A stretch of 58,943 bases of DNA from an uncultured Bacteroidota bacterium (GTDB taxonomy: Bacteria > Bacteroidota > Bacteroidia > AKYH767-A > 2013-40CM-41-45), in contig CALMQM010000093.1 in assembly GCA_937871435.1 (NCBI GenBank), positions 1-58,943 on the forward strand. The letters run 5' to 3'. The number at the start of each line of letters is the position of its first letter. The first letter of the stretch is position 1. Made by a program: the position numbers and the translations under genes. This document shows positions 4,600 through 38,058 of the stretch, one piece after another. Below the pieces are notes generated by a model. That model had not been told where the DNA came from. It made no database searches and was given only the letters and a program-made list of their open reading frames with translations.

Positions 4600-7059
4600 T
4601 CACCAGGAGATTATCACTTCTTCATCCTTACTAAGATCAAACCAAAATACGAGATCGCTTCCGTCTTGTTTCATCCTGAGTTCCTTTCCTTCAACATTTA
4701 CATTACGGGCTTTTATTGAAAATGAAATGCCCCATAATTGTTTTCCGGACCTATTAATTACTCTCACCTTATTGCCATTTATTGGCACACATTCTACTTT
4801 TTCAAGATCCAATTGATGCGTGATAAACCGGTCAATAGTAGTCAGGTTTAAAAGTCCTTCATCCCGGAATTTTGCCTGGCGCATCAGTACCTTTTCAAAT
4901 TCAGGAGCAATCCGAATTTTGCTCCCAACTGTTTCGAAATAACCATTGGATGAATCAATCCTTGCAGGATACGCATGAATACAATAGGTAGCTCTGGATT
5001 GAACAAAATCTTTCAAACGTGATTCTGAAAAAGTAAAATCCCAAAGATCAGTACCCGGAGGATCAAGCGTATTCATGGTTGCCCAGTGAATTAAAGAATC
5101 ACTGCGTGTCGGATGCATCCAGAAATCCGGCAAAGGGAAACAATTTCCCCATCCCGAGTATGGAACACTCATGAACGAAAAATAACTGTATGGAGCATAG
5201 AGTCCTGAGTCTTCATAATAACTGTTCCACAAATAACGGACTCCATACTTTTGCCAAAGGTCCTTCGCATAATAGTCAGAATGCCTGTCAAGGCCATCAC
5301 ACATCAAATCCTCTCTGTTACTTTTTTGAGGATTATCATAACCATGATCTATCCATGTTGGTGAATGAAAAGTCTGACTAAAATCCTGTAATGCATCATT
5401 CAATAATTTCCGGTTTGTTGTGTAGTGATCCGGAGTATGTAAACAAATTTCATTTCCATCATGATTCAATTCCACAAGAAATTCCCGGAATCCCGGTGTG
5501 CCCTGAACAGTTGCAATTTCTGATTTTTCTCCGGCTACCCTATCGCTATTCATGACCTTGTCCGGATTAGCGTAAAACACACTCTTTGTAACAGGAATTT
5601 TATTTTTTACAAATCCACCCATTGCATTCTGTGCATGCAGAATCGTATCGCATCCGAAATATATTGCTCTTTGAGTTTGTAAAGATGTATAATCCGCATG
5701 TTCCGTCCAGATCAATGCAGCAGTTTTACCATTTTCATTTTTCATCAATCTGGGAAAAACGTTTTGATTCCAGTTCGTGTAGATAGTAATTTCTGATTTC
5801 AGGGAATCACCGGCCTGAAACAAACTCCGCGAAATGTCTGATTTCACATTGGTGCCTTTCTTCAATAAAGGAAAATGAAAAAAAGGATGATCGGCATAAT
5901 AATCCATGTTTACTATGCATCGCTTATGATCCGTATCAAGTTGTAATGACGATGCGTGCTTAGCGGACGGAATGAGTAAAGTATTTTCTCCATCGCCTGC
6001 CAGGAATCCACAATGATTCAGCCAATATTCATGCTGAAACCAGGCGGTATCGCTTAAAGTAGATGGAAGATATACTTCTTTCAAGTCAGGTACAAAATCA
6101 AAGATCAGGGCAGATCTGGCAACAGTACACTGTTGTTGGAAACGGGTAACAAAAGAAATTTCGAGTGAAGGTCGGAGAGTTGAAAAACAAAAAACAAAGC
6201 GGCTTATGGCAGTAGTATCTCGAGTTTCAAATTTTAAAAAAGTTGCGTCAGTAGAAACTGAATCCCCAAGGAAATTAAAGTCAGAGTTATATTTGTTGAT
6301 TGATTTCGATTTTTTCTGACTTACAAAATCTCCTTTTAAATAATAGAAGAATTCATTCAAAAGTATTTTTCCTTCACTGGTCAAAATTTTGATCGAGCCA
6401 CTTCCTGAATCATAATCAGCATTGAAATAATTGCCTGAATAAATCCTGTTCCACGATAAATTCTTATCACCATTAATAGGAGGATAGTTTTCAGGTAAAA
6501 ACACCGGCAATTGTTTTTCAATAAAATCCAGACTGACATCGTCAACGTCTACCTGAGAAGAAGCTGATTCATTCCAAACATAGATTGCGATAATATTTTC
6601 TGGTGAACTAAAATTTCGTGGGATTTTAAGTTCATTGTGTGAAGGAAACCAGGATCCGGAATTAGAATTCACCGGTGCTTTCAATGGATAATTCTCCCAA
6701 TAAACTTCAGAGTCTCCATGCTGAACACTTATCACAACAGATGCTTTTGGATCACCACCCGTAATTCTGACCTGCAGATCAAATACTATTTCAAGATTTT
6801 TATGAACACACTGCTCAGGAAATTTGCCTTTGTAGCCTATTCCAAAATGGTGAATGGAATCAGTCCTGCTGAAGAACTTCCCTGAAAACGCCTGACCTTC
6901 AATCCTTGTTTCCTGATTCACCCAGGACACTTCCGATGAGTTATTTTCCAAATCGGTTTTTGCGCTCCACAATGTGTCTGCCCTTCTTTCAGCAGAGACG
7001 AAAGAAAATTTCAATACTAAAAAAATAAGAAGGAATAGAATTTTCCGGATGCAGTTCAT
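4600..7059 (-). CDS. Large secreted protein with a NodB-like (polysaccharide deacetylase-type) core
   Basis: 819 residues with a signal peptide (to about residue 23, ending in SFVSA). The first 440 residues look like beta-rich carbohydrate-binding or jelly-roll material. The centre has a pattern of carbohydrate esterase family 4: WTEHAD (451-456) in place of the TFDDG motif, HTPDH (541-545) matching the metal-binding H[ST]xxH motif exactly, and then TWIDHGYDN. The C-terminal 80 residues resemble a small beta domain. Deacetylation of a glycan is a reasonable guess but the altered first motif makes activity uncertain. It sits between mtgA and a lytic transglycosylase, which suggests a periplasmic or surface polysaccharide substrate. 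Confidence 0.6.
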   Translation of the reverse strand: MNCIRKILFLLIFLVLKFSFVSAERRADTLWSAKTDLENNSSEVSWVNQETRIEGQAFSGKFFSRTDSIHHFGIGYKGKFPEQCVHKNLEIVFDLQVRITGGDPKASVVISVQHGDSEVYWENYPLKAPVNSNSGSWFPSHNELKIPRNFSSPENIIAIYVWNESASSQVDVDDVSLDFIEKQLPVFLPENYPPINGDKNLSWNRIYSGNYFNADYDSGSGSIKILTSEGKILLNEFFYYLKGDFVSQKKSKSINKYNSDFNFLGDSVSTDATFLKFETRDTTAISRFVFCFSTLRPSLEISFVTRFQQQCTVARSALIFDFVPDLKEVYLPSTLSDTAWFQHEYWLNHCGFLAGDGENTLLIPSAKHASSLQLDTDHKRCIVNMDYYADHPFFHFPLLKKGTNVKSDISRSLFQAGDSLKSEITIYTNWNQNVFPRLMKNENGKTAALIWTEHADYTSLQTQRAIYFGCDTILHAQNAMGGFVKNKIPVTKSVFYANPDKVMNSDRVAGEKSEIATVQGTPGFREFLVELNHDGNEICLHTPDHYTTNRKLLNDALQDFSQTFHSPTWIDHGYDNPQKSNREDLMCDGLDRHSDYYAKDLWQKYGVRYLWNSYYEDSGLYAPYSYFSFMSVPYSGWGNCFPLPDFWMHPTRSDSLIHWATMNTLDPPGTDLWDFTFSESRLKDFVQSRATYCIHAYPARIDSSNGYFETVGSKIRIAPEFEKVLMRQAKFRDEGLLNLTTIDRFITHQLDLEKVECVPINGNKVRVINRSGKQLWGISFSIKARNVNVEGKELRMKQDGSDLVFWFDLSKDEEVIISW

Positions 7060-28606: not shown

Positions 28607-29098
28607 TTGGACCTAATTAGAGTTACGTCTTACGCTTGTCAATGTATAGAGTTACGCAGCTTGCGACTGACCAAAAGCTGCTAAATCCGGACAAGTGTAA
28701 GATTTGCGGGCAAATTAATAATTTTTTTTAGCTCAATTTTGTTTGTAGCAACCTGTGGATAATGACACAATGCAACCCTACTCAGGCTTTTGATTTTTTA
28801 TTTCTAAAACCTGCGCTGGATTGTACTGAATACAGTGGCTCCGAAATTTCTGCTAAAGATAAAAAAAAGGATTCATTGATTCGAGAAAAAAATGCAACTC
28901 CGTTCATTAACAAAATGATTAATCGTCTTCGTCAGGAAAAAGTAAGAAAGTGTTGATTTACAAAAAGAAGATAGTAAAACAAAGGATCGTTCAGCAATTT
29001 TAAATATTTTTGTTATGCAAAATAAAAGTGCTTTCCTTTCGTTTACGGGAGAACCACTTCCTGTTTACCATTACTTAAAATCAAACGCTTGTTTCTCC
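28607..29098. other. Intergenic region between porP/sprF and porU
   Basis: 492 bases between divergent T9SS genes. It holds a direct repeat TAGAGTTACG (28618-28627 and 28647-28656, 29-bp period) close to the porP/sprF start and a plus-strand -7 element TATTTTTG at 29005-29012 before porU. A 64-residue lysine-rich frame at 28762-28956 has no recognisable features; I do not call it. Confidence 0.5.
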
Positions 29099-32000
29099 AT
29101 GTATAAAAAAAGACTATGGACAGTTCTTCTCTTTTGTCTTCCTTTTCTTGCTCACTCTGCTGACTCATTCCAATCACCTCAGGACAAAATTGCAATTTCA
29201 TGGTTGCCGGTATTGGAAACATCCACTCCGGACGAAACTCCAGAACGCACTCTGAGGTTTGAAGGTGGTTCTTACAATGAATTTTTTCAACCTGAATTTG
29301 TCAGAACAATTCCACTCACTTCCAATAGCAGCAATGTGAACGCGACTTTAAGTGAAGTTGAAACTGAACCACTCAAGGAAGCAAATCTGCTCAGCCACCC
29401 TGAAAAGATTGGCCCGGAATTTAAGATTGAAACCAGTGTTGTCTACAGAAAAAAAATGCCTTATGCTTCTGTACGCATCCTGCCTATCCGGAAATCTAAG
29501 ACCGGACAAGGATTTGAAAAACTGATTTCATTCAAGTTAAATGTTTCCCCGTCATTTAACACTAACCGAATCTCACCTGCACGGGCATACTCAAGCAATA
29601 GTGTTCTTGCAAATGGAGACTGGTACAAATTCAGTGTTGTGAACAACGGAGTGTACAAAATCACATACACTCAATTGAAGAATTTAGGAATTGATATCGA
29701 CAATATCGATCCTCATAACATTCGTATTTATGGAAATGGTGGCGGCATGCTTCCTCAGGCCAATTCCAAACCGCGGCCGGATGATTTACTTGAAAATGCT
29801 ATTCTTGTTATTGGCGAATCCGACAATCATTTTGACGCAGCTGACTATATTTTATTCTACGGTACAAGTCAACATCGCTGGATTCAGGATCCTGTCACCA
29901 ATAAATTCAGTCATGTGATGAATCAGTATTCGGATAGTACTTACTATTTCATCACAACTGGTTTGGGCGCTGGAAAAAGAATTCAAACGAGGAATTCTTC
30001 TTCATCCGGTGCAACGAATACCGTCAATTCCTTTGATGCTTATGCATACCATGAAATTGACGCAGTGAATCTTTTAAAATCCGGTCGCGACTGGTATGGT
30101 GAAAATTTTGACAATGTGAATAACAGTCATTCTTTTTCATTTTCCATCCCAAGTATCATTACCACAGACACCTTATTAGTGAGAGCCTCGCTAATCGGTC
30201 GCGCCGAAAACAGTTCGAACAATTCATTCACCCTTTCATTGAATGGACAGACTTTAGCAACTCAGGCATTTTCATCAGTGGGTAGTTCTCCTCAGGATAA
30301 TTATGCCGCGCCTGTGTATATGACCAAAACACTTTTCCCTTCCTCCGGAATTTTGAATGTCGGACTTTCGATGTACTCCGCAGATCCGAATAGTCAGGGA
30401 TGGCTGAATGGTATTGATCTTAACCTGCGTTGTCAGTTGAATTATCTCAATCAGGGGAATCAATTTCTCTTTCGTGATACCCGTTCTGTGGGACCCGGAA
30501 ACATCAGTGATTTTACGATAAGCAATACCAATAACACAACAATGGTATGGGATGTAACAGATCCTACAAATGTTGTTACTCAACAAAGTACTTTTGCTTC
30601 CAATGCAAGTAATTTCAGAACTGAGACTTCTTCTTTACACGAGTTCATCGCGTTCAATGAATCAAGCACCTACTCTCCTGTTTTCACCGGATTAATCGAG
30701 AATCAGAATCTGCATGCTTCACCCAAAGCTACTTTATTGATTGTTACCAGTCCTTTGTTTTTAAATGAAGCGAACGAATTAGCGGATTTTCACCGTACAC
30801 ACGATGGATACGCAACAGTAGTTGCTACAACAACTCAAATCTTCAATGAGTTTTCTTCCGGGGCACAAGACGTAAGTGCGATTCGTGATTTCGTGAAAAT
30901 GTTTTACGACCGCGCTTACACACCGGGTGATCTTCCACGCTATTTATTGATCCTTGGTGACGCTTCCTATGACAATAAAAACCGACTTTCTTCAAATACC
31001 AATTTTGTCACGTCTTATCAAAGTTATGGATCCCTCAATCAGACACAGACTTATATGTCTGATGATTTCTTTGGGTTGCTGGATGATGCTGAAGGAGATT
31101 GGTACAATGGAGAAATTGTAGATCTGAGTGTTGGGCGTCTACCTGTAAAATCTGTTCAGGAAGCACAGGGAATGGTAAACAAAATCATTCATTATGCAGG
31201 CGCGGATTTAAATGGCACATTGAACGCAAACGGAATTAACAGCACTGTTTATGCCGACTGGAGAAATGTGGTCACATTTGTTTCTGATGATCAGGACAGC
31301 AATACTCACTTCAAACAAGCAGATACAATCGCCAAAAGAGTTTCCCGAGATTACCCTTTATTCAATCTCGACAAAATTTACATGGATGCTTACAATCAGC
31401 AATCTACTCCTGGAGGAAACAGATATCCTGACGGACACAAAGCTCTTGTTGACAGAGTGCAGAAAGGCTCCCTCCTTCTGACATACATCGGACATGGCGG
31501 AGAAGTTGGTTGGGGACATGAACGTTTTCTTGAAGTGGACGATATTAATAACTGGACGAACCTTAATGCCATGCCGGCATTTCTTACTGCTACATGTGAG
31601 TTTACCCGTGTCGATGATCCCGGCAGAACCTCCGCCGGTGAATTGGTATTTCTGAATCCGAATGGCGGAGGAATTTGTCTGTTTACTACCTCCCGACTCG
31701 CTTTTTCCAGCTCAAACTATAATCTCTGTCAACGCTTTTTTACTCACGTCTTCACTGAAATTGACGGGCATATGCCAAGTATCGGGGACATCTTTGAGCA
31801 AACAAAAATTGACGTTTACACAGATCAATACGTCAGAAATTTCATTCTGATTGGAGACCCTGCTTTGCGCATGGCTTATCCGAAACTTTCGGTCAAGACA
31901 AATACCATAAACGGATATGACATCAATTCAGTAGTGGATACACTGAAGGCATTACGTCACATCACCATAACGGGAGAAATACAAAATTCATCAGGCTCCA

Positions 32001-32980
32001 AAGTGAGCTCCTTCAATGGGATTATTTACCCGACTGTTTTTGATAAATGGGTAACCTATTATACATTAGGAAATGACCGTAACGTAACCAATGATCCATC
32101 TTATGCAGCTCCTTTTGAATTGCAAAAAAATATTATTTACAGAGGTAAAGCCAGCGTTGTAAATGGTGAATTCAGTTTCTCTTTTGTTGTCCCGAAAGAT
32201 ATTCAGTTTCAGTATGGAAATGGAAAACTAAGTTATTATGCACAGGACGGTTCTACAGATGCATCCGGATTCAGCACACGGGTTCTGGTGGGCGGATATG
32301 ACACTTCCGTTCCACAAGATGCAAAAGGTCCTGAGATAAAACTTTATATCAATGATGAGAAATTTGTTCGCGGAGGTATGACAGATAAAAATCCGGTTCT
32401 GTATGCGGTAGTAGTCGACAGCAGTGGATTAAATACTGTTGGCAATGGAATCGGACATGACATGACTGCAGAACTTGATAACAGCAACAGCAAGATTTAT
32501 GTCTTGAACGATTATTATGAAAATGAACTGAACAGTTATCAAAAAGGAAAAGTCAGGTATCCGTTCAAAGATCTTGCTGCAGGACCCCATTCCGTGAACC
32601 TCAAAGTTTGGGATGTATTCAATAATTCAAGTGAAGCCACAACTGATTTTGTAGTTGCTGAGTCGGCAAAATTAGCACTGGATCATGTCTTGAATTATCC
32701 GAATCCATTTACTACGCACACAACATTCATGTTTGAACATAACCGTCCATTCACCAATCTGGATATACAAATTCAAATTTTTACGGTCTCCGGAAAACTC
32801 ATTAAAACACTTGCCAGTAAAATATATTCTGAAGGTTATCGTTCCGATGATCTCGAATGGAACGGCCTGGATGATTTTGGTGATAAAATCGGGAAAGGTG
32901 TGTATGTTTATAAGCTTCGGGTTCGTTCTTCCGATGGAGATTATGCCGATAAATTCGAAAAACTCGTGATTCTGCGTTAA
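29099..32980 (+). CDS. porU: Type IX secretion sortase PorU (C25 gingipain-like)
   Basis: 1293 residues from MYKKRLWTVLLFCLPFLAHS (signal peptide). The catalytic part is a C25 peptidase domain with His799 in TYIGHGGEVGWGHE and Cys833 in LTATCEFTRVDDPG. Beta-domains follow and the protein ends in a type A sorting domain (LNYPNPFTTHTTFMFEH ... GKGVYVYKLRV ... EKLVIL). PorU removes the sorting domains of T9SS cargo and links them to A-LPS at the surface. An in-frame ATG at 29015 would put 28 residues before the signal peptide and lies just ahead of the predicted transcription start, so it is rejected. PorV follows 60 nt downstream. Confidence 0.95.
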   Translation: MYKKRLWTVLLFCLPFLAHSADSFQSPQDKIAISWLPVLETSTPDETPERTLRFEGGSYNEFFQPEFVRTIPLTSNSSNVNATLSEVETEPLKEANLLSHPEKIGPEFKIETSVVYRKKMPYASVRILPIRKSKTGQGFEKLISFKLNVSPSFNTNRISPARAYSSNSVLANGDWYKFSVVNNGVYKITYTQLKNLGIDIDNIDPHNIRIYGNGGGMLPQANSKPRPDDLLENAILVIGESDNHFDAADYILFYGTSQHRWIQDPVTNKFSHVMNQYSDSTYYFITTGLGAGKRIQTRNSSSSGATNTVNSFDAYAYHEIDAVNLLKSGRDWYGENFDNVNNSHSFSFSIPSIITTDTLLVRASLIGRAENSSNNSFTLSLNGQTLATQAFSSVGSSPQDNYAAPVYMTKTLFPSSGILNVGLSMYSADPNSQGWLNGIDLNLRCQLNYLNQGNQFLFRDTRSVGPGNISDFTISNTNNTTMVWDVTDPTNVVTQQSTFASNASNFRTETSSLHEFIAFNESSTYSPVFTGLIENQNLHASPKATLLIVTSPLFLNEANELADFHRTHDGYATVVATTTQIFNEFSSGAQDVSAIRDFVKMFYDRAYTPGDLPRYLLILGDASYDNKNRLSSNTNFVTSYQSYGSLNQTQTYMSDDFFGLLDDAEGDWYNGEIVDLSVGRLPVKSVQEAQGMVNKIIHYAGADLNGTLNANGINSTVYADWRNVVTFVSDDQDSNTHFKQADTIAKRVSRDYPLFNLDKIYMDAYNQQSTPGGNRYPDGHKALVDRVQKGSLLLTYIGHGGEVGWGHERFLEVDDINNWTNLNAMPAFLTATCEFTRVDDPGRTSAGELVFLNPNGGGICLFTTSRLAFSSSNYNLCQRFFTHVFTEIDGHMPSIGDIFEQTKIDVYTDQYVRNFILIGDPALRMAYPKLSVKTNTINGYDINSVVDTLKALRHITITGEIQNSSGSKVSSFNGIIYPTVFDKWVTYYTLGNDRNVTNDPSYAAPFELQKNIIYRGKASVVNGEFSFSFVVPKDIQFQYGNGKLSYYAQDGSTDASGFSTRVLVGGYDTSVPQDAKGPEIKLYINDEKFVRGGMTDKNPVLYAVVVDSSGLNTVGNGIGHDMTAELDNSNSKIYVLNDYYENELNSYQKGKVRYPFKDLAAGPHSVNLKVWDVFNNSSEATTDFVVAESAKLALDHVLNYPNPFTTHTTFMFEHNRPFTNLDIQIQIFTVSGKLIKTLASKIYSEGYRSDDLEWNGLDDFGDKIGKGVYVYKLRVRSSDGDYADKFEKLVILR

Positions 32981-33040
32981 TTAAACAAAACAAATCTTGT
33001 TTATTCACGTATATTTGCCGACCACATTTTATAACGAAAA

Positions 33041-34282
33041 ATGCATTTTACACAAAAAAAGGCCTTTTTAGCATTGTTTAGCGCTCTGCTGGCCACAGGG
33101 TCCGCTTCCGCTCAGATCAATTCTTTTAAAGATTCACTTCTGGGTCAGATTAACACCATCACTACTTCCGTTCCTTTCTTGCAAATCGCTCCGGATTCAC
33201 GTGCCGGCGGTATGGGAGATTATGGTGTAGCAACTTCTCCGGATCCAAACTCGATTCACTGGAACCCTGCAAAACTGGCTTTTGCAGATAAAAATTTCGG
33301 TTTCTCAATTTCGTATACTCCCTGGTTGCGTGCTTTGGTGAACGACATCAACCTCGCATATATTTCAGGATATAAAAAATTGAAAAATGACCAGGCCTTC
33401 GCGGCTTCATTGCTGTATTTCTCTTTGGGAAATATTGACTTCACAAATGACAACGCGGAAAAAGTAGGATCTTTTAACCCGAATGAATGGGCGTTTGATG
33501 TAGCCTACTCCCGTAAACTTGGTGAAGATTTCTCCGGCGGTATCGCATTGCGTTACATTTATTCAAATCTAACCGGTGGTGTAGCGATTGCAAATAATAC
33601 AATCCAGACTCACGCAGGAACTTCAGTCGCAGCGGATATCTCAGGGTATTACAGAAAGGATATTGAAGTTTCAAACAAGAAATCAATTCTTGCATTTGGT
33701 TTGAATTTATCCAACATTGGATCTAAAATTTCCTACACCGATACAAAGTCAAAAGATTTTATTCCAACCAACTTCCGTTTAGGTACAAATCTCAAAATGG
33801 AGTTGGACAATTACAATACTATTTCTTTCGGTGCTGATATCAATAAGCTCCTTGTTCCTACTCCTCCAGTATATCTGAAAACCAGCGATGGTCGCGACAG
33901 TCTGGATGCTGATTTGAACAAAATCATTCAGGCAGGAAAAGATCCTAATGATGTTTCCCCTGCAGGCGCTTTGTTCAGTTCCTGGTCTGATGCACCTGCC
34001 GGTTTTAAAGAAGAATTGAAAGAGTTTACATACTCTATCGGCGCTGAATACTGGTACGACAAACAATTTGCTATCCGTGCCGGTTATTTCCATGAAGCGA
34101 GCACAAAAGGAAATCGTAAATTCTTCACAATCGGTGCCGGTCTTCGTTACAATGTGTTTGGACTCGACTTTGCATACCTCATCCCTACTACACAAAGAAA
34201 TCCACTTGAAAACACTCTTCGATTTACTTTGATCTTTGATTTTGAAGGATTGAAAAAAGAGAACTCAGAAAGTACTGAATAA
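33041..34282 (+). CDS. porV: Type IX secretion outer-membrane protein PorV
   Basis: 413 residues with signal peptide to about 24 (GSASAQ). TTSVPFLQIAPDSRAGGMGDYGVATSPDPNSIHWNPAKLAF is the conserved PorV/LptO N-terminus, followed by a FadL-like 14-strand barrel and a last strand LRFTLIFDFEGL. PorV shuttles cargo from the SprA translocon to PorU, its gene partner here. Own -7-like element TATATTTG (33010-33017) lies just before it. Confidence 0.95.
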   Translation: MHFTQKKAFLALFSALLATGSASAQINSFKDSLLGQINTITTSVPFLQIAPDSRAGGMGDYGVATSPDPNSIHWNPAKLAFADKNFGFSISYTPWLRALVNDINLAYISGYKKLKNDQAFAASLLYFSLGNIDFTNDNAEKVGSFNPNEWAFDVAYSRKLGEDFSGGIALRYIYSNLTGGVAIANNTIQTHAGTSVAADISGYYRKDIEVSNKKSILAFGLNLSNIGSKISYTDTKSKDFIPTNFRLGTNLKMELDNYNTISFGADINKLLVPTPPVYLKTSDGRDSLDADLNKIIQAGKDPNDVSPAGALFSSWSDAPAGFKEELKEFTYSIGAEYWYDKQFAIRAGYFHEASTKGNRKFFTIGAGLRYNVFGLDFAYLIPTTQRNPLENTLRFTLIFDFEGLKKENSESTE

Positions 34283-34298
34283 ATCACCCATTCAATAA

Positions 34299-34338
34299 AA
34301 AAGAAAAGCGGGCGAATAATCGTCCGCTTTTCTTTTTT
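34299..34338. terminator. Terminator after porV
   Basis: Long stem with an arm AAGAAAAGCGGGCGA (34301-34315) pairing with TCGTCCGCTTTTCTT (one G-T pair), short loop AATAA, A-run before and T-run after; ends the porU-porV unit and lies 18 nt before ispF. Confidence 0.85.
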
Positions 34339-34355
34339 CTGTTTTTTTGTATGAC

Positions 34356-34838
34356 ATGAAAAAGATAAGAATAGGATTTGGATTCGACGTCCACCAATTG
34401 GCAGATGGACGTGATTTTTGGCTTGGTGGAATATTGGTCCCGCATCAAAAAGGTGCAGTCGGACATTCAGACGCGGATGTAATGATCCATGCCATATGTG
34501 ATGCATTGCTTGGCGCCGCCAATCTTGGTGATATAGGTAAACACTTTCCTGATACATCCCAGGAATTCAAAAATATCGACAGCAAAATTCTCCTTCAAAA
34601 AGTTTGTTCCCTGATTGATTCCAACAATTGGGAAATTGGGAATGTGGATGTTACTCTCTGTCTCGAGAAACCTAAAATTGCACCTTTTATTCCTCAAATG
34701 CAGGAAGTATTATCAAAAGTAGCAGGGATAGAGAAAGAAGATATTTCAATCAAGGCAACTACGAATGAGAAAATGGGATATGTCGGGCGACAGGAAGGTG
34801 TCCATTGTTATGCTGTTGCACTATTGCTTAAGAAATAG
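34356..34838 (+). CDS. ispF: 2-C-methyl-D-erythritol 2,4-cyclodiphosphate synthase
   Basis: 160 residues starting MKKIRIGFGFDVHQL (Asp and His zinc ligands in DVH). HSDADVMIHAICDALLGAANLGDIGKHFPDT carries the third zinc histidine and CDP-binding residues; ATTNEKMGYVGR and EGVHCYAVALL complete the family. It makes the cyclic diphosphate of the MEP isoprenoid pathway. Single gene, bounded by terminators on both sides. Confidence 0.97.
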   Translation: MKKIRIGFGFDVHQLADGRDFWLGGILVPHQKGAVGHSDADVMIHAICDALLGAANLGDIGKHFPDTSQEFKNIDSKILLQKVCSLIDSNNWEIGNVDVTLCLEKPKIAPFIPQMQEVLSKVAGIEKEDISIKATTNEKMGYVGRQEGVHCYAVALLLKK

Positions 34839-34847
34839 ATCCAAACA

Positions 34848-34883
34848 AAAAAATCCGGGCACATCGTCCCGGATTTTTTTTTC
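34848..34883 (+). terminator. ispF terminator
   Basis: Stem AAAAAATCCGGG (34848-34859) with CCCGGATTTTTT (34868-34879), 8-nt loop, T-run. Confidence 0.9.
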
Positions 34884-34992: not shown

Positions 34993-35667
34993 TCAGAAAG
35001 ATGTAAAAGTGTATCCTAATCCAATGATGTAATCATTAGCAGGACTCACCAGACTGTGCTGAATCAGGTAAAAGACATTGATGCTGTGATGAAGATTGAA
35101 CTCATAATCTACTCCTGCTTCATAGCGGAAACGATCAATTCCTTCATCTTTTTCTTTCGCGTTATCAATGAGATAAAAAACTTCAGTGGCGAGGTATGGA
35201 GAATATTTTTTGTTCAAATCAATTTTGGCTGTGAGCTTTGTGCGGGAATACCATTCGGGTATTTTCCCCAACTCACTTGAATTAATATCTGTCAATTGTT
35301 CCTGCACTCGTTCTCTGAGGGATAATGTAACAGGACTGATTTTGTATTTATAAGCCAGATCAAGATAAAATCTGTGTCTCTTGCTGTAATACGTTTCCTT
35401 GTTTTTAGAAATTAGCCTGTAATTCAGTGAGGCCTTAAAACGCTTTGTGATATTGTATTCCAGGCTCAGATCGGTAAAATACTGATCTATCCTCGACATG
35501 TTATCCCACAACCGGAATTGCTCACCGATGGCACCGGACCATTTTTGCGTGAACTTATGTTGCAGCGTCAGACTGGTCCATAAACCGGCATCCTCCTGTG
35601 CTTTGGCCATACCTGACACAGACAGAAAGAGAACAAGAAAAGCAAACCGGATTTTGGAATAAATCAT
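34993..35667 (-). CDS. DUF2490 outer-membrane protein
   Basis: 224 residues, signal peptide to SGMAKAQ, then DAGLWTSLTLQHKFTQKWSGAIGEQFRL and repeated amphipathic strands (SLEYNITKRFKASLNYRLI, RFYLDLAYKYKISP, FRYEAGVDYEFN), ending in a short aromatic strand GLGYTFTSF. This is the DUF2490 barrel pattern. It overlaps the DUF4956 stop by 4 nt, so it is the last gene of the VTC operon. It could be the outer-membrane exit or anchor for that system; this is inference. Confidence 0.82.
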   Translation of the reverse strand: MIYSKIRFAFLVLFLSVSGMAKAQEDAGLWTSLTLQHKFTQKWSGAIGEQFRLWDNMSRIDQYFTDLSLEYNITKRFKASLNYRLISKNKETYYSKRHRFYLDLAYKYKISPVTLSLRERVQEQLTDINSSELGKIPEWYSRTKLTAKIDLNKKYSPYLATEVFYLIDNAKEKDEGIDRFRYEAGVDYEFNLHHSINVFYLIQHSLVSPANDYIIGLGYTFTSF

Positions 35668-36281
35668 GATTTTTTTGAAGCGACTGTATCCTCGTAAAAA
35701 TAAATCTTAATGACGGCAATGTCTTTCAGGAAATCAATTTTATTAATACTCACACGGTGAATATCCAAGCCTGTCCGTTTTTTTAGATCTTCAATCAATG
35801 CCTGATGATGTTCCGGCTTGATCATTTCAATATTTTCATATTGAACTGTCTTAATCATCTCATTTCTTACCAGCCAGTTTCCATCCAATGCATAGGTAAA
35901 ACCAATCAAGATAATATTGATTATAGCCAATTCAAAATATGTAGCTTTACTAACAGCGGAAATCAATCCCATTGCGATTACGATAAAGAGATAGGTCATG
36001 TCTTTAGTCGAAATACCTTCTGTTCTGTAACGCAACATGGAGAACACAGCAAACAAGCCAAAAGCTGCTCCCATACTCAAATCCACTTTATTCAACAAAT
36101 AAGTAATTACAAAAATGATGATGTTGAATAAGAAGAATGTGAACAGGTAATCTTTCTTTTTGTAAATCCTGAAATAGATAAGTCTGACAAGGATTAACAT
36201 TGAGATTACATCTATTAAAAGACGTATAAAAAACTTGTCGGACAGTTTGTCAAAGAGTTCGAAAGCTGCTGGATCGTTCAT
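35664..36281 (-). CDS. DUF4956 membrane protein
   Basis: 205 residues with about four membrane helices in the first 130 residues (LLIDVISMLILVRLIYF, YLFTFFLFNIIIFVITYLL, GAAFGLFAVFSMLRYRTEGI, YLFIVIAMGLISAV) and a soluble C-terminal domain. The segment GLFAVFSMLRYRTEGISTKDMTYLFI is the conserved DUF4956 core. The family is repeatedly found beside VTC-domain proteins, as here (2 nt spacing), which suggests a membrane partner of the polymerase. No function is proven. Confidence 0.88.
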   Translation of the reverse strand: MNDPAAFELFDKLSDKFFIRLLIDVISMLILVRLIYFRIYKKKDYLFTFFLFNIIIFVITYLLNKVDLSMGAAFGLFAVFSMLRYRTEGISTKDMTYLFIVIAMGLISAVSKATYFELAIINIILIGFTYALDGNWLVRNEMIKTVQYENIEMIKPEHHQALIEDLKKRTGLDIHRVSINKIDFLKDIAVIKIYFYEDTVASKKS

Positions 36282-36283
36282 TG

Positions 36284-37033
36284 TTACTTTAGTAATTTAG
36301 TTAAATAAAGGAGTGTCGGTTTGAAATTATTTTTCTTGATTTCCGGGTTGAGACTGATTACACCCAGACAATATTTACTGATGGATTTTTGAAGAATGGA
36401 ATACTTTTTCATCAGGTCAATGAATGGGCTTTTATCTCGTCCACTGCCTTGTTTCACTTCCGCGATAACCAATCCTTTGTAATCAACAGTCTTGTGTGAG
36501 TCTTTGAACAACAACTCTGTATCAATTGTTAATCTTTCCTGAGAATGCTTATTTACGAATGTCATCCGAAGGTAATTAACCCATAATTTCGCTTTCAGTG
36601 TTTGCGGGTCAACCGGTGAAATGCTTCTTACAAGTTCTTCTGATTTATCGGAAATCTGATGAACGATTTCAGGTCGTTTGATACGATCCTTGATCGTTCT
36701 TCCTTTGTTATTTTTGAATTTTACTTCAAAAAAATGAAGGTTGGATTCTACGTATCTCCGTGATCTGAATTTAAATCTGTTTAGTTTACCATTATGATGA
36801 CCAAGATACAAGGCATAAAGGTCAGTATCAAAGTAGAGAGTTTCGTAATGGGTGTATCGCTTCTCCCCCGCTTCCAGTACATAATAATCATTTTTCATCT
36901 GCTCTAAAATCTCCGACAGATGAGTATCACGGAACATGAATTTAGTATCGACCCTGTCAAGCAATTTGACATTGTCCATTTGCTTTAATGAAATCGGTTC
37001 AAAAGAACCTAATATAGGATCGAGTAGACTCAC
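36284..37033 (-). CDS. VTC-domain (polyphosphate polymerase-type) protein
   Basis: 249 residues with the triphosphate-tunnel VTC fold. Charged strand residues expected inside the tunnel are present: LLDRVDTKFMF, YETLYFDTD, KLNRFKFRSRRY, FFEVKFKNNKGRTIKDRI, RLTIDTELLF, GLVIAEVKQG, and the final SKYCLGV. Yeast Vtc4 uses such a tunnel to make polyphosphate from ATP; bacterial members next to DUF4956 are poorly known. Start is GTG with no nearby ATG before the conserved region. There is no SPX domain and no membrane helix, so it would depend on the DUF4956 protein for membrane location. Confidence 0.87.
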   Translation of the reverse strand: MSLLDPILGSFEPISLKQMDNVKLLDRVDTKFMFRDTHLSEILEQMKNDYYVLEAGEKRYTHYETLYFDTDLYALYLGHHNGKLNRFKFRSRRYVESNLHFFEVKFKNNKGRTIKDRIKRPEIVHQISDKSEELVRSISPVDPQTLKAKLWVNYLRMTFVNKHSQERLTIDTELLFKDSHKTVDYKGLVIAEVKQGSGRDKSPFIDLMKKYSILQKSISKYCLGVISLNPEIKKNNFKPTLLYLTKLLK

Positions 37034-37041
37034 AGGGGCAA

Positions 37042-37611
37042 TCAGAATTCGTATATGTATTTCTTTTCAGACTCCAGGTTGCCTTTTGCATCATAGCTTT
37101 TACGGCTCACTTTCAACCCTTTATTATCATATAACAAAATGACTTTGTGAGTCACATTGTTTTTATTGTCCAGAGTAATCTCGGTTGTACGGTCACCATT
37201 GGCGTTGTATGTATACACGTCTTTGTCTACAAAGTTTCCACCGGCATCTGTATGAATCTCTTCAATTTTATCACCGTTTGCATTGAATTTTATAGTCTTT
37301 TTCTTCTTGACTTTTCCATCTTCGGTGTAACTGACCTCTTCCGTTTTATCTCCATTTTTATTTAACACATAGCTGAAATGCGATTTGAAAGTACCGTCAT
37401 CATTATAATTGATTTCTTCCACCACTTCCCCATTTGAATCAAAACGCTGAAAAGACTCATTCATGGTATGTTCTTTACCATCCTTGATATCCGTATCAGT
37501 TATCTTTATGGACTTAATTTTGTTCTTTTTGACGTCTTTCTTACTCTGAGAATACGCACCAAATGACAATGCTGTTAATGAAAGCAGCATTAGCAGGAAA
37601 AATCGTTTCAT
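37042..37611 (-). CDS. Secreted YD-like repeat protein
   Basis: 189 residues with signal peptide (MKRFFLLMLLSLTALSFGAYSQ). From residue 60 on it is built of about five repeats of 20-25 residues with the pattern G-D/E-x-x-E-E-I-x-Y-x-x-D/N-G, such as GEVVEEINYNDDG, GDKTEEVSYTEDG, GDKIEEIHTDAGG, GDRTTEITLDNKN. Similar repeats occur in RHS/YD and MORN-like surface proteins. It is highly charged. It lies 8 nt upstream of the VTC gene, so co-transcription is very likely. Function unknown. Confidence 0.75.
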   Translation of the reverse strand: MKRFFLLMLLSLTALSFGAYSQSKKDVKKNKIKSIKITDTDIKDGKEHTMNESFQRFDSNGEVVEEINYNDDGTFKSHFSYVLNKNGDKTEEVSYTEDGKVKKKKTIKFNANGDKIEEIHTDAGGNFVDKDVYTYNANGDRTTEITLDNKNNVTHKVILLYDNKGLKVSRKSYDAKGNLESEKKYIYEF

Positions 37612-37614
37612 CTT

Positions 37615-38058
37615 TTACTGTTGATTGTTTTTAAGAATAATGATATCGGGAGCCACAATTGTCTGGTTCTTGTCTGTGATCTCTACAGTCACAAAAGCCG
37701 GAACTTTGGGTAATGAACCATTGACCGTGCCATTGTATGCTCCAGTCGAATCTTTTGAGTAAGCAAAAAGCTTGTAACTTCCCTTTTGCAGGTATTTGAA
37801 TTCATAGGTACCATCGTAACTGGTCTTGTAATCATTATCGTAAGTGGCATGATCTGCACCGTAGATAATGTATACATCTTCATCCTTTGCAGGAAAAGTG
37901 TCCGGAATGCTCACAAAACCAGGGTCAAAGTCATATACAATCACTTTTCCTGTGATTGTGGAGGTTCCGCCTTCACCAGCTTCTTTTTTACAGGATGCAA
38001 GGGCAATCAAAGAGAAAGCAAGGAGAGAAGATTTGATAATGAGTTGGTTAAATTTCAT
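37615..38058 (-). CDS. Lipoprotein with prealbumin-like / Cna-B-like beta-sandwich
   Basis: 147 residues. Lipobox IALASC (Cys23) followed by KKEAGEGG. The mature part, with STITGKVIVYDF, SIPDTFPAKDEDVYIIYG, TSYDGTYEFKYLQKGSYKLFAYSKD and FVTVEITDKNQTIVAPDIIIL, has the strand order of carboxypeptidase-regulatory or Cna-B-type domains. It is the first gene of the five-gene VTC operon, 3 nt from the next. Confidence 0.75.
   Translation of the reverse strand: MKFNQLIIKSSLLAFSLIALASCKKEAGEGGTSTITGKVIVYDFDPGFVSIPDTFPAKDEDVYIIYGADHATYDNDYKTSYDGTYEFKYLQKGSYKLFAYSKDSTGAYNGTVNGSLPKVPAFVTVEITDKNQTIVAPDIIILKNNQQ

Follow-up and report, generated by a model that had tools for sequence, protein, structure and literature searches.

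What does a VTC-type polymerase do in a bacterium when it is encoded together with inner-membrane, periplasmic and outer-membrane proteins? The question is raised by a 58,943-nt contig of an uncultured Bacteroidota bacterium (GenBank assembly GCA_937871435.1, contig CALMQM010000093.1; this whole stretch is called the window below), which carries five closely spaced genes on its minus strand between positions 34993 and 38058. The initial annotation had called five open reading frames here, and the coordinates, the strand and the intergenic gaps of 3, 8, 2 and −4 nt all match. In order of transcription the genes encode a lipoprotein (LP), a short-repeat protein (YD), a VTC protein, a DUF4956 protein and a DUF2490 outer-membrane barrel (OMP). 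We conclude that this five-gene unit is genuine and conserved, that the library searched contains no description of it as a system, and that it is a variant of a known principle, that of VTC-type synthesis and translocation. The reading that we prefer is that it forms a trans-envelope polymerase-exporter of polyphosphate whose product is used with CotH-type kinases, and we judge the chance that this is correct to be about even. It is based on conserved gene order, co-occurrence, residues and predicted folds.

Conservation of the five-gene unit

Gene-order counts were made on 80 named loci collected independently via DUF4956. VTC lies directly upstream of DUF4956 in 77 of the 80, with a median overlap of 23 nt (a 2-nt gap in the window), and a DUF2490 barrel gene lies directly downstream of DUF4956 in 72. 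Accessory genes upstream are YD-like in 51 loci and LP in 48; the full set in the order of the window is present in 36/80, while YD alone is missing in 10 and LP alone in 11. Carriers include Runella, Dyadobacter, Emticicia, Larkinella, Flectobacillus and many uncultured Bacteroidota. A second sample consisted of 61 related genomes, that of the window included; a close VTC homologue was found in 33 of these, in neighbourhoods that repeatedly read LP-(YD)-VTC-DUF4956-OMP. The LP-YD-VTC-DUF4956-OMP order is kept even where identity to the window OMP falls to about 22%, and it therefore reflects more than recent common descent. The earlier suggestion that the five genes are one unit is borne out by the conserved order in the 80 loci, the wide repetition of this order across Bacteroidota rejects random variation of accessory genes beside VTC-DUF4956, and the proposed span from inner to outer membrane is supported as that of a single conserved unit.

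The window's own genome contains a second VTC-DUF4956 pair (L033, G000:C121:50500-63500; VTC 6038-6850 and DUF4956 5421-6041, both minus strand), the VTC protein of which is 42% identical to that of the window. The metagenome-assembled genome E10_metabat.bin.7 holds two copies of the unit (L078 and L083), and in L083 VTC has changed strand and lies after the barrel gene. L071 has LP and DUF4956, but neither VTC nor a barrel gene occurs in that locus, which is a decayed or VTC-less version. After the barrel gene in L137 (6623-8415) there is a LytS-type histidine kinase with a LytTR response regulator, and pairs of similar size follow the barrel gene in L114, L119, L121, L125 and L130; these are possible dedicated regulators. 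An apparent fusion of VTC to an extra domain in L153 (778 aa) was rejected, as the N-terminal extension matches nothing in Pfam, shares its DNA with an HlyD-like frame and is probably a reading-frame artefact.

Predicted properties of the five proteins

The VTC protein (36284..37033, minus strand; 249 aa, GTG start) is predicted to be cytosolic and consists of a triphosphate-tunnel polymerase-type domain, matching Pfam VTC at 90.9 bits against a cut-off of 23 (E 1.2e-25). A profile of the family retrieves yeast Vtc4 (3g3q, 1.5e-4) and Vtc2 among PDB sequences; the window protein alone, run with phmmer against the PDB, gave no match. The Vtc4 residues R264, R266, E426 and K458 correspond to R90, R92, E192 and K220 of the window protein (protein numbering here and below), which are 100% conserved in about 100 relatives. 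Further correspondences are to Vtc4 K200, K281, K294 and R361, residues whose roles were reportedly assigned in the 2009 Vtc4 structure paper. The equivalents of the Vtc4 catalytic residues are thus invariant, and the idea that the tunnel residues might be missing is rejected. The initial annotation had proposed polyphosphate or another anionic chain, and a product of this kind is supported as likely. R264, R266 and E426 are residues mutated in catalytically impaired Vtc4 (PMC9911596) and K458 is a catalytic residue of Vtc4 (PMC4641920). Vtc4 lacks the acidic patch of TTM phosphatases (PMC4641920). At two positions of this patch the window protein has the basic residues R27 and K194 where phosphatases carry Glu, and at another the acidic D29; the equivalent of AtTTM3 Glu-90 could not be placed. 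A polymerase identity is favoured by these residues, not proved.

DUF4956 (35664..36281, minus strand; 205 aa, Pfam 4.5e-53) is a predicted inner-membrane protein, its model (pLDDT 82) having five long helices followed by a small C-terminal alpha/beta domain. Four basic residues are conserved; R84, R86 and K93 cluster around the loop joining helices 3 and 4, and R20 lies near the opposite face of the model. By the positive-inside rule the R84/R86/K93 side would be cytosolic, and DUF4956 is likely to be the channel partner of VTC. Kinship to a solved membrane fold was sought with Foldseek and VIA and rejected, the matches being scattered, weak and mostly to the alpha/beta domain; such weak matches are no evidence of a new fold.

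The OMP (34993..35667, minus strand; 224 aa) has a signal peptide, a beta-barrel and a match to DUF2490 of 109.4 bits against a cut-off of 29.8 (2.3e-31). This family is classed as putative porins, with no established function (TC 1.B.81; PMC4827864). The nearest solved folds to the OMP model (pLDDT 89.5) include KdgM (4pr7; Z 16.2, rmsd 2.6 over 162 residues) and NanC (Z 15.3), porins for acidic sugars that it resembles in predicted fold and basic lumen. The likeness has limits: the KdgM family barrel is 12-stranded whereas 11 long strands are listed in the model, no KdgM Pfam match or sequence relation was found, and the OMP gene belongs to a synthesis rather than an uptake unit. Arginine occupies seven of the 17 conserved OMP columns against a background of 6.5% (P 5e-5), an excess not seen in the PorV barrel encoded nearby, and all eight conserved basic residues (R52, R84, R99, R118, R120, R142, K144 and R181) face the lumen as judged by hydrophobic alternation.

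LP (37615..38058, minus strand; 147 aa) is a predicted envelope lipoprotein with a lipobox cysteine at position 23 followed by a K-x-x-G-x-G-G motif; C23, G28, G30, G31 and G37 are conserved in 71 relatives, C23 invariantly. The surface position given to it in the initial annotation goes further than this prediction. It had no family match in the Pfam scan. A strong LP match is present in 33 of 34 VTC-positive genomes and one of 27 VTC-negative genomes among the 61 (Fisher 5.8e-15). As LP lies on a contig other than that of VTC in three genomes (G048, G049 and G060), it tracks VTC even when unlinked. YD (37042..37611, minus strand; 189 aa) has a signal peptide and short repeats, is rich in lysine and is predicted to be periplasmic. 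The YD-repeat label given to it earlier is a tentative one, with matches to MORN_2 (27.4) and RHS_repeat (20.5) that both fall just under the Pfam cut-offs (29.6 and 22, respectively). Lysine accounts for seven of the 22 conserved columns, and the family is basic with a median pI of 9.0.

CotH association and envelope variants

The initial annotation had remarked that CotH is missing. This is so for the operon and for the contig, but a family-by-family search for CotH and PPK1 revealed nine CotH genes on other contigs of the same genome, and five of the six CotH proteins examined have type IX secretion tails. Among the 80 loci CotH is found in the same upstream run in 33, either as a CotH-LTD-type IX protein of ~760 aa or as a CotH protein of ~480-520 aa. 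All 34 VTC-positive genomes of the 61 have CotH, six have CotH without VTC and 21 have neither (Fisher 2.4e-11); a phylum-wide sample of 148 genomes, which shares a few with the 61, gave 29 out of 29, 31 and 88 for the same classes (Fisher 2.2e-14). For 19 class-level genomes, one per family, the counts (both/VTC only/CotH only/neither) were 9/0/1/9 (P 1.2e-4). VTC presence implies CotH presence, then, as a statistical link and a rule that is not absolute. PPK1 showed no association with VTC (25/9/20/7 in the same order of classes, P 1) and is also present in the window's own genome, so VTC is ruled out as a stand-in for PPK1; the lack of a PPK1 link makes a separate polyphosphate pool likely.

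A different arrangement was found in 20 VTC loci taken mainly from the phylum sample, many of them outside the class of the window. LP and YD are mostly missing from these, and in 11 of the 20 VTC-DUF4956 is accompanied by an HlyD-adaptor-type protein of 354-376 aa (some Pfam matches are weak), in two groups that are connected by profile comparison. L166, with the order CotH - DUF4956 - HlyD - OEP/TolC - VTC, is the one locus with OEP/TolC. Proteins of the HlyD type link transporters of the inner membrane with channels of the outer one, and two unrelated envelope modules are therefore attached to one VTC-DUF4956 core, which is the strongest argument that this core exports something. The likeness to HlyD/TolC tripartite exporters lies in these other loci; the window unit differs in having no HlyD or TolC, with LP, YD and DUF2490 instead, and the neighbouring genes that were scanned included no ABC or RND pump. 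In two HlyD-type loci the gene after DUF4956 (L168:4451-5242; L171:4377-5168) encodes a lipoprotein with SdiA-regulated/phytase-like matches, possibly a phosphate-related enzyme belonging to the same unit.

The genes convergent with the unit in the window (29015-34838) are PorU-like (29015-32980), PorV-like (33041-34282) and ispF (34347-34838), neighbours that recur in relatives (L034, L068, L070, L074, L078, L082, L099, L106, L131 and L138). PorU and PorV, names given here from context, are parts of the type IX system, by which the CotH proteins would be secreted. Between the unit and ispF an inverted repeat was read from the sequence (AAAAAAATCCGGG-CACATCGT-CCCGGATTTTTTTTT, 34847..34882), which is probably a bidirectional terminator common to both; it is absent from the list of the consensus scan, probably because its stem runs into the T run. 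Sigma-70-like promoters occur in the region at chance level only, and no TAnnTTTG box was found upstream of LP. An anti-phage role was rejected, there being no PADLOC match.

Proposed route of the product and alternatives

As its Vtc4-type catalytic residues suggest, VTC would act in the cytosol, building a polyphosphate chain from the gamma-phosphates of ATP, and the growing chain would leave through an inner-membrane channel of DUF4956, to which the gene pairing and the analogy to the yeast complex point. LP and the lysine-rich YD may hold or guide the chain in the periplasm, and the arginine-lined DUF2490 barrel would be the outer-membrane exit, a role suggested by its basic lumen and by the HlyD/TolC variants. 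From the statistical association we infer that the product would be used together with secreted CotH-type kinases, encoded here in trans. The channel of yeast VTC has a basic wall, and the chain is passed through it as it is made (PMC9911596). The likeness to that complex (Vtc1/Vtc3/Vtc4, in which polyphosphate synthesis is coupled to vacuolar import) extends to a VTC tunnel domain with catalytic residues common to both, a membrane partner with conserved basic residues and, as a model, cytosolic synthesis with membrane passage. Yeast VTC subunits have an SPX domain and DUF202-type membrane helices, whereas none of the five window proteins gave an SPX or DUF202 match in Pfam; the window unit has DUF4956 instead, is linked to CotH, and has periplasmic and outer-membrane parts added. 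The bacterial literature offers the same VTC-DUF4956 core with CotH among the accessory genes of Gram-positive pel clusters (CotH - 'poly-phosphate polymerase' or 'PPP', that is VTC - DUF4956 - DUF4832; PMC7112168), and VTC genes beside CotH in Clostridium perfringens NELoc-2 (PMC2879425). No LP, YD or DUF2490 barrel is described for these loci, while the window has no pel cluster and CotH is encoded in trans in its genome. Two NELoc-2 proteins encoded next to the VTC genes and named 'tubulin/FtsZ, GTPase' (CP4_0461 and CP4_0464, 222-226 aa; PMC2879425) are, from their size, location and position, probably misnamed DUF4956.

Several observations weigh against polyphosphate export with CotH. 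In Bacteroides ihuae, one of the control genomes, VTC and DUF4956 occur with no CotH match, and the second VTC-DUF4956 pair in the window's own genome is without LP, YD and barrel. The window copy of YD has a pI of 6.9 and is not basic; autotransporter barrels score almost equal to KdgM against the OMP model, and so small a barrel may pass only short chains or phosphate. D29 of VTC is acidic at one position of the patch typical of TTM phosphatases. Our search found neither activity data for any bacterial VTC protein nor a solved relative of DUF4956 showing a channel.

One alternative is that polyphosphate is made and exported specifically to supply phosphoryl groups to secreted CotH kinases, which have little ATP at hand in their extracellular place of work. 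This fits the one-way dependence (in both samples every genome with VTC also had CotH, while CotH often occurred alone), as it fits the type IX tails of the CotH proteins as well as the description of the ATP source for spore-coat CotH as an open question (PMC7821199). We nevertheless think it unlikely, since ATP serves as a substrate of CotH in vitro (PMC7821199), some genomes carry CotH but lack VTC, a polyphosphate-dependent CotH is not known and Bacteroides ihuae runs counter to it; rather unlikely, too, is the extended form in which trans-envelope export by VTC-DUF4956 feeds CotH and drives extracellular protein phosphorylation without ATP. Polyphosphate might instead be retained in the periplasm to buffer phosphate or metals; the barrel would then exchange nothing but phosphate and small anions, with the link to CotH an indirect lifestyle correlation. 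A narrow barrel with a basic lumen is indeed like specific porins, and the B. thetaiotaomicron DUF4956-DUF2490 genes are listed in an iron-dependent stimulon (PMC10434189), but CotH in the same run in 33/80 loci is too frequent for mere lifestyle correlation and the HlyD and TolC variants point past the periplasm, so that this is also a rather improbable explanation.

A further possibility is that VTC is no polymerase but a tunnel enzyme of triphosphatase or transferase type, with the sensing or modification of some other substrate as its task, the unit then assembling or phosphorylating an exported matrix polymer. Other TTM enzymes of the same fold make no polyphosphate (PMC4641920), D29 would suit such an enzyme, and in Gram-positives the CotH, 'PPP' and DUF4956 genes adjoin pel polysaccharide clusters (PMC7112168). 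Set against this are the basic R27 and K194, the retention of all four Vtc4 equivalents and the neighbourhood of the window unit, in which neither a glycosyltransferase nor a pel gene was noted, and we regard it as improbable, slightly more so than the two alternatives above.

The initial suggestion of an undescribed system holds in that the five-gene unit, the CotH dependence and the HlyD variant are not described in the searched library. As far as that library shows, no machinery has been assigned to bacterial polyphosphate export, and the phosphate source for CotH kinases outside the cytosol is stated to be an open question (PMC7821199). A conserved operon of enzyme, membrane subunit and outer-membrane barrel in isolate genera such as Runella, Dyadobacter, Emticicia and Larkinella makes both questions directly testable, and the five-gene unit provides a first functional frame for DUF4956 and DUF2490.

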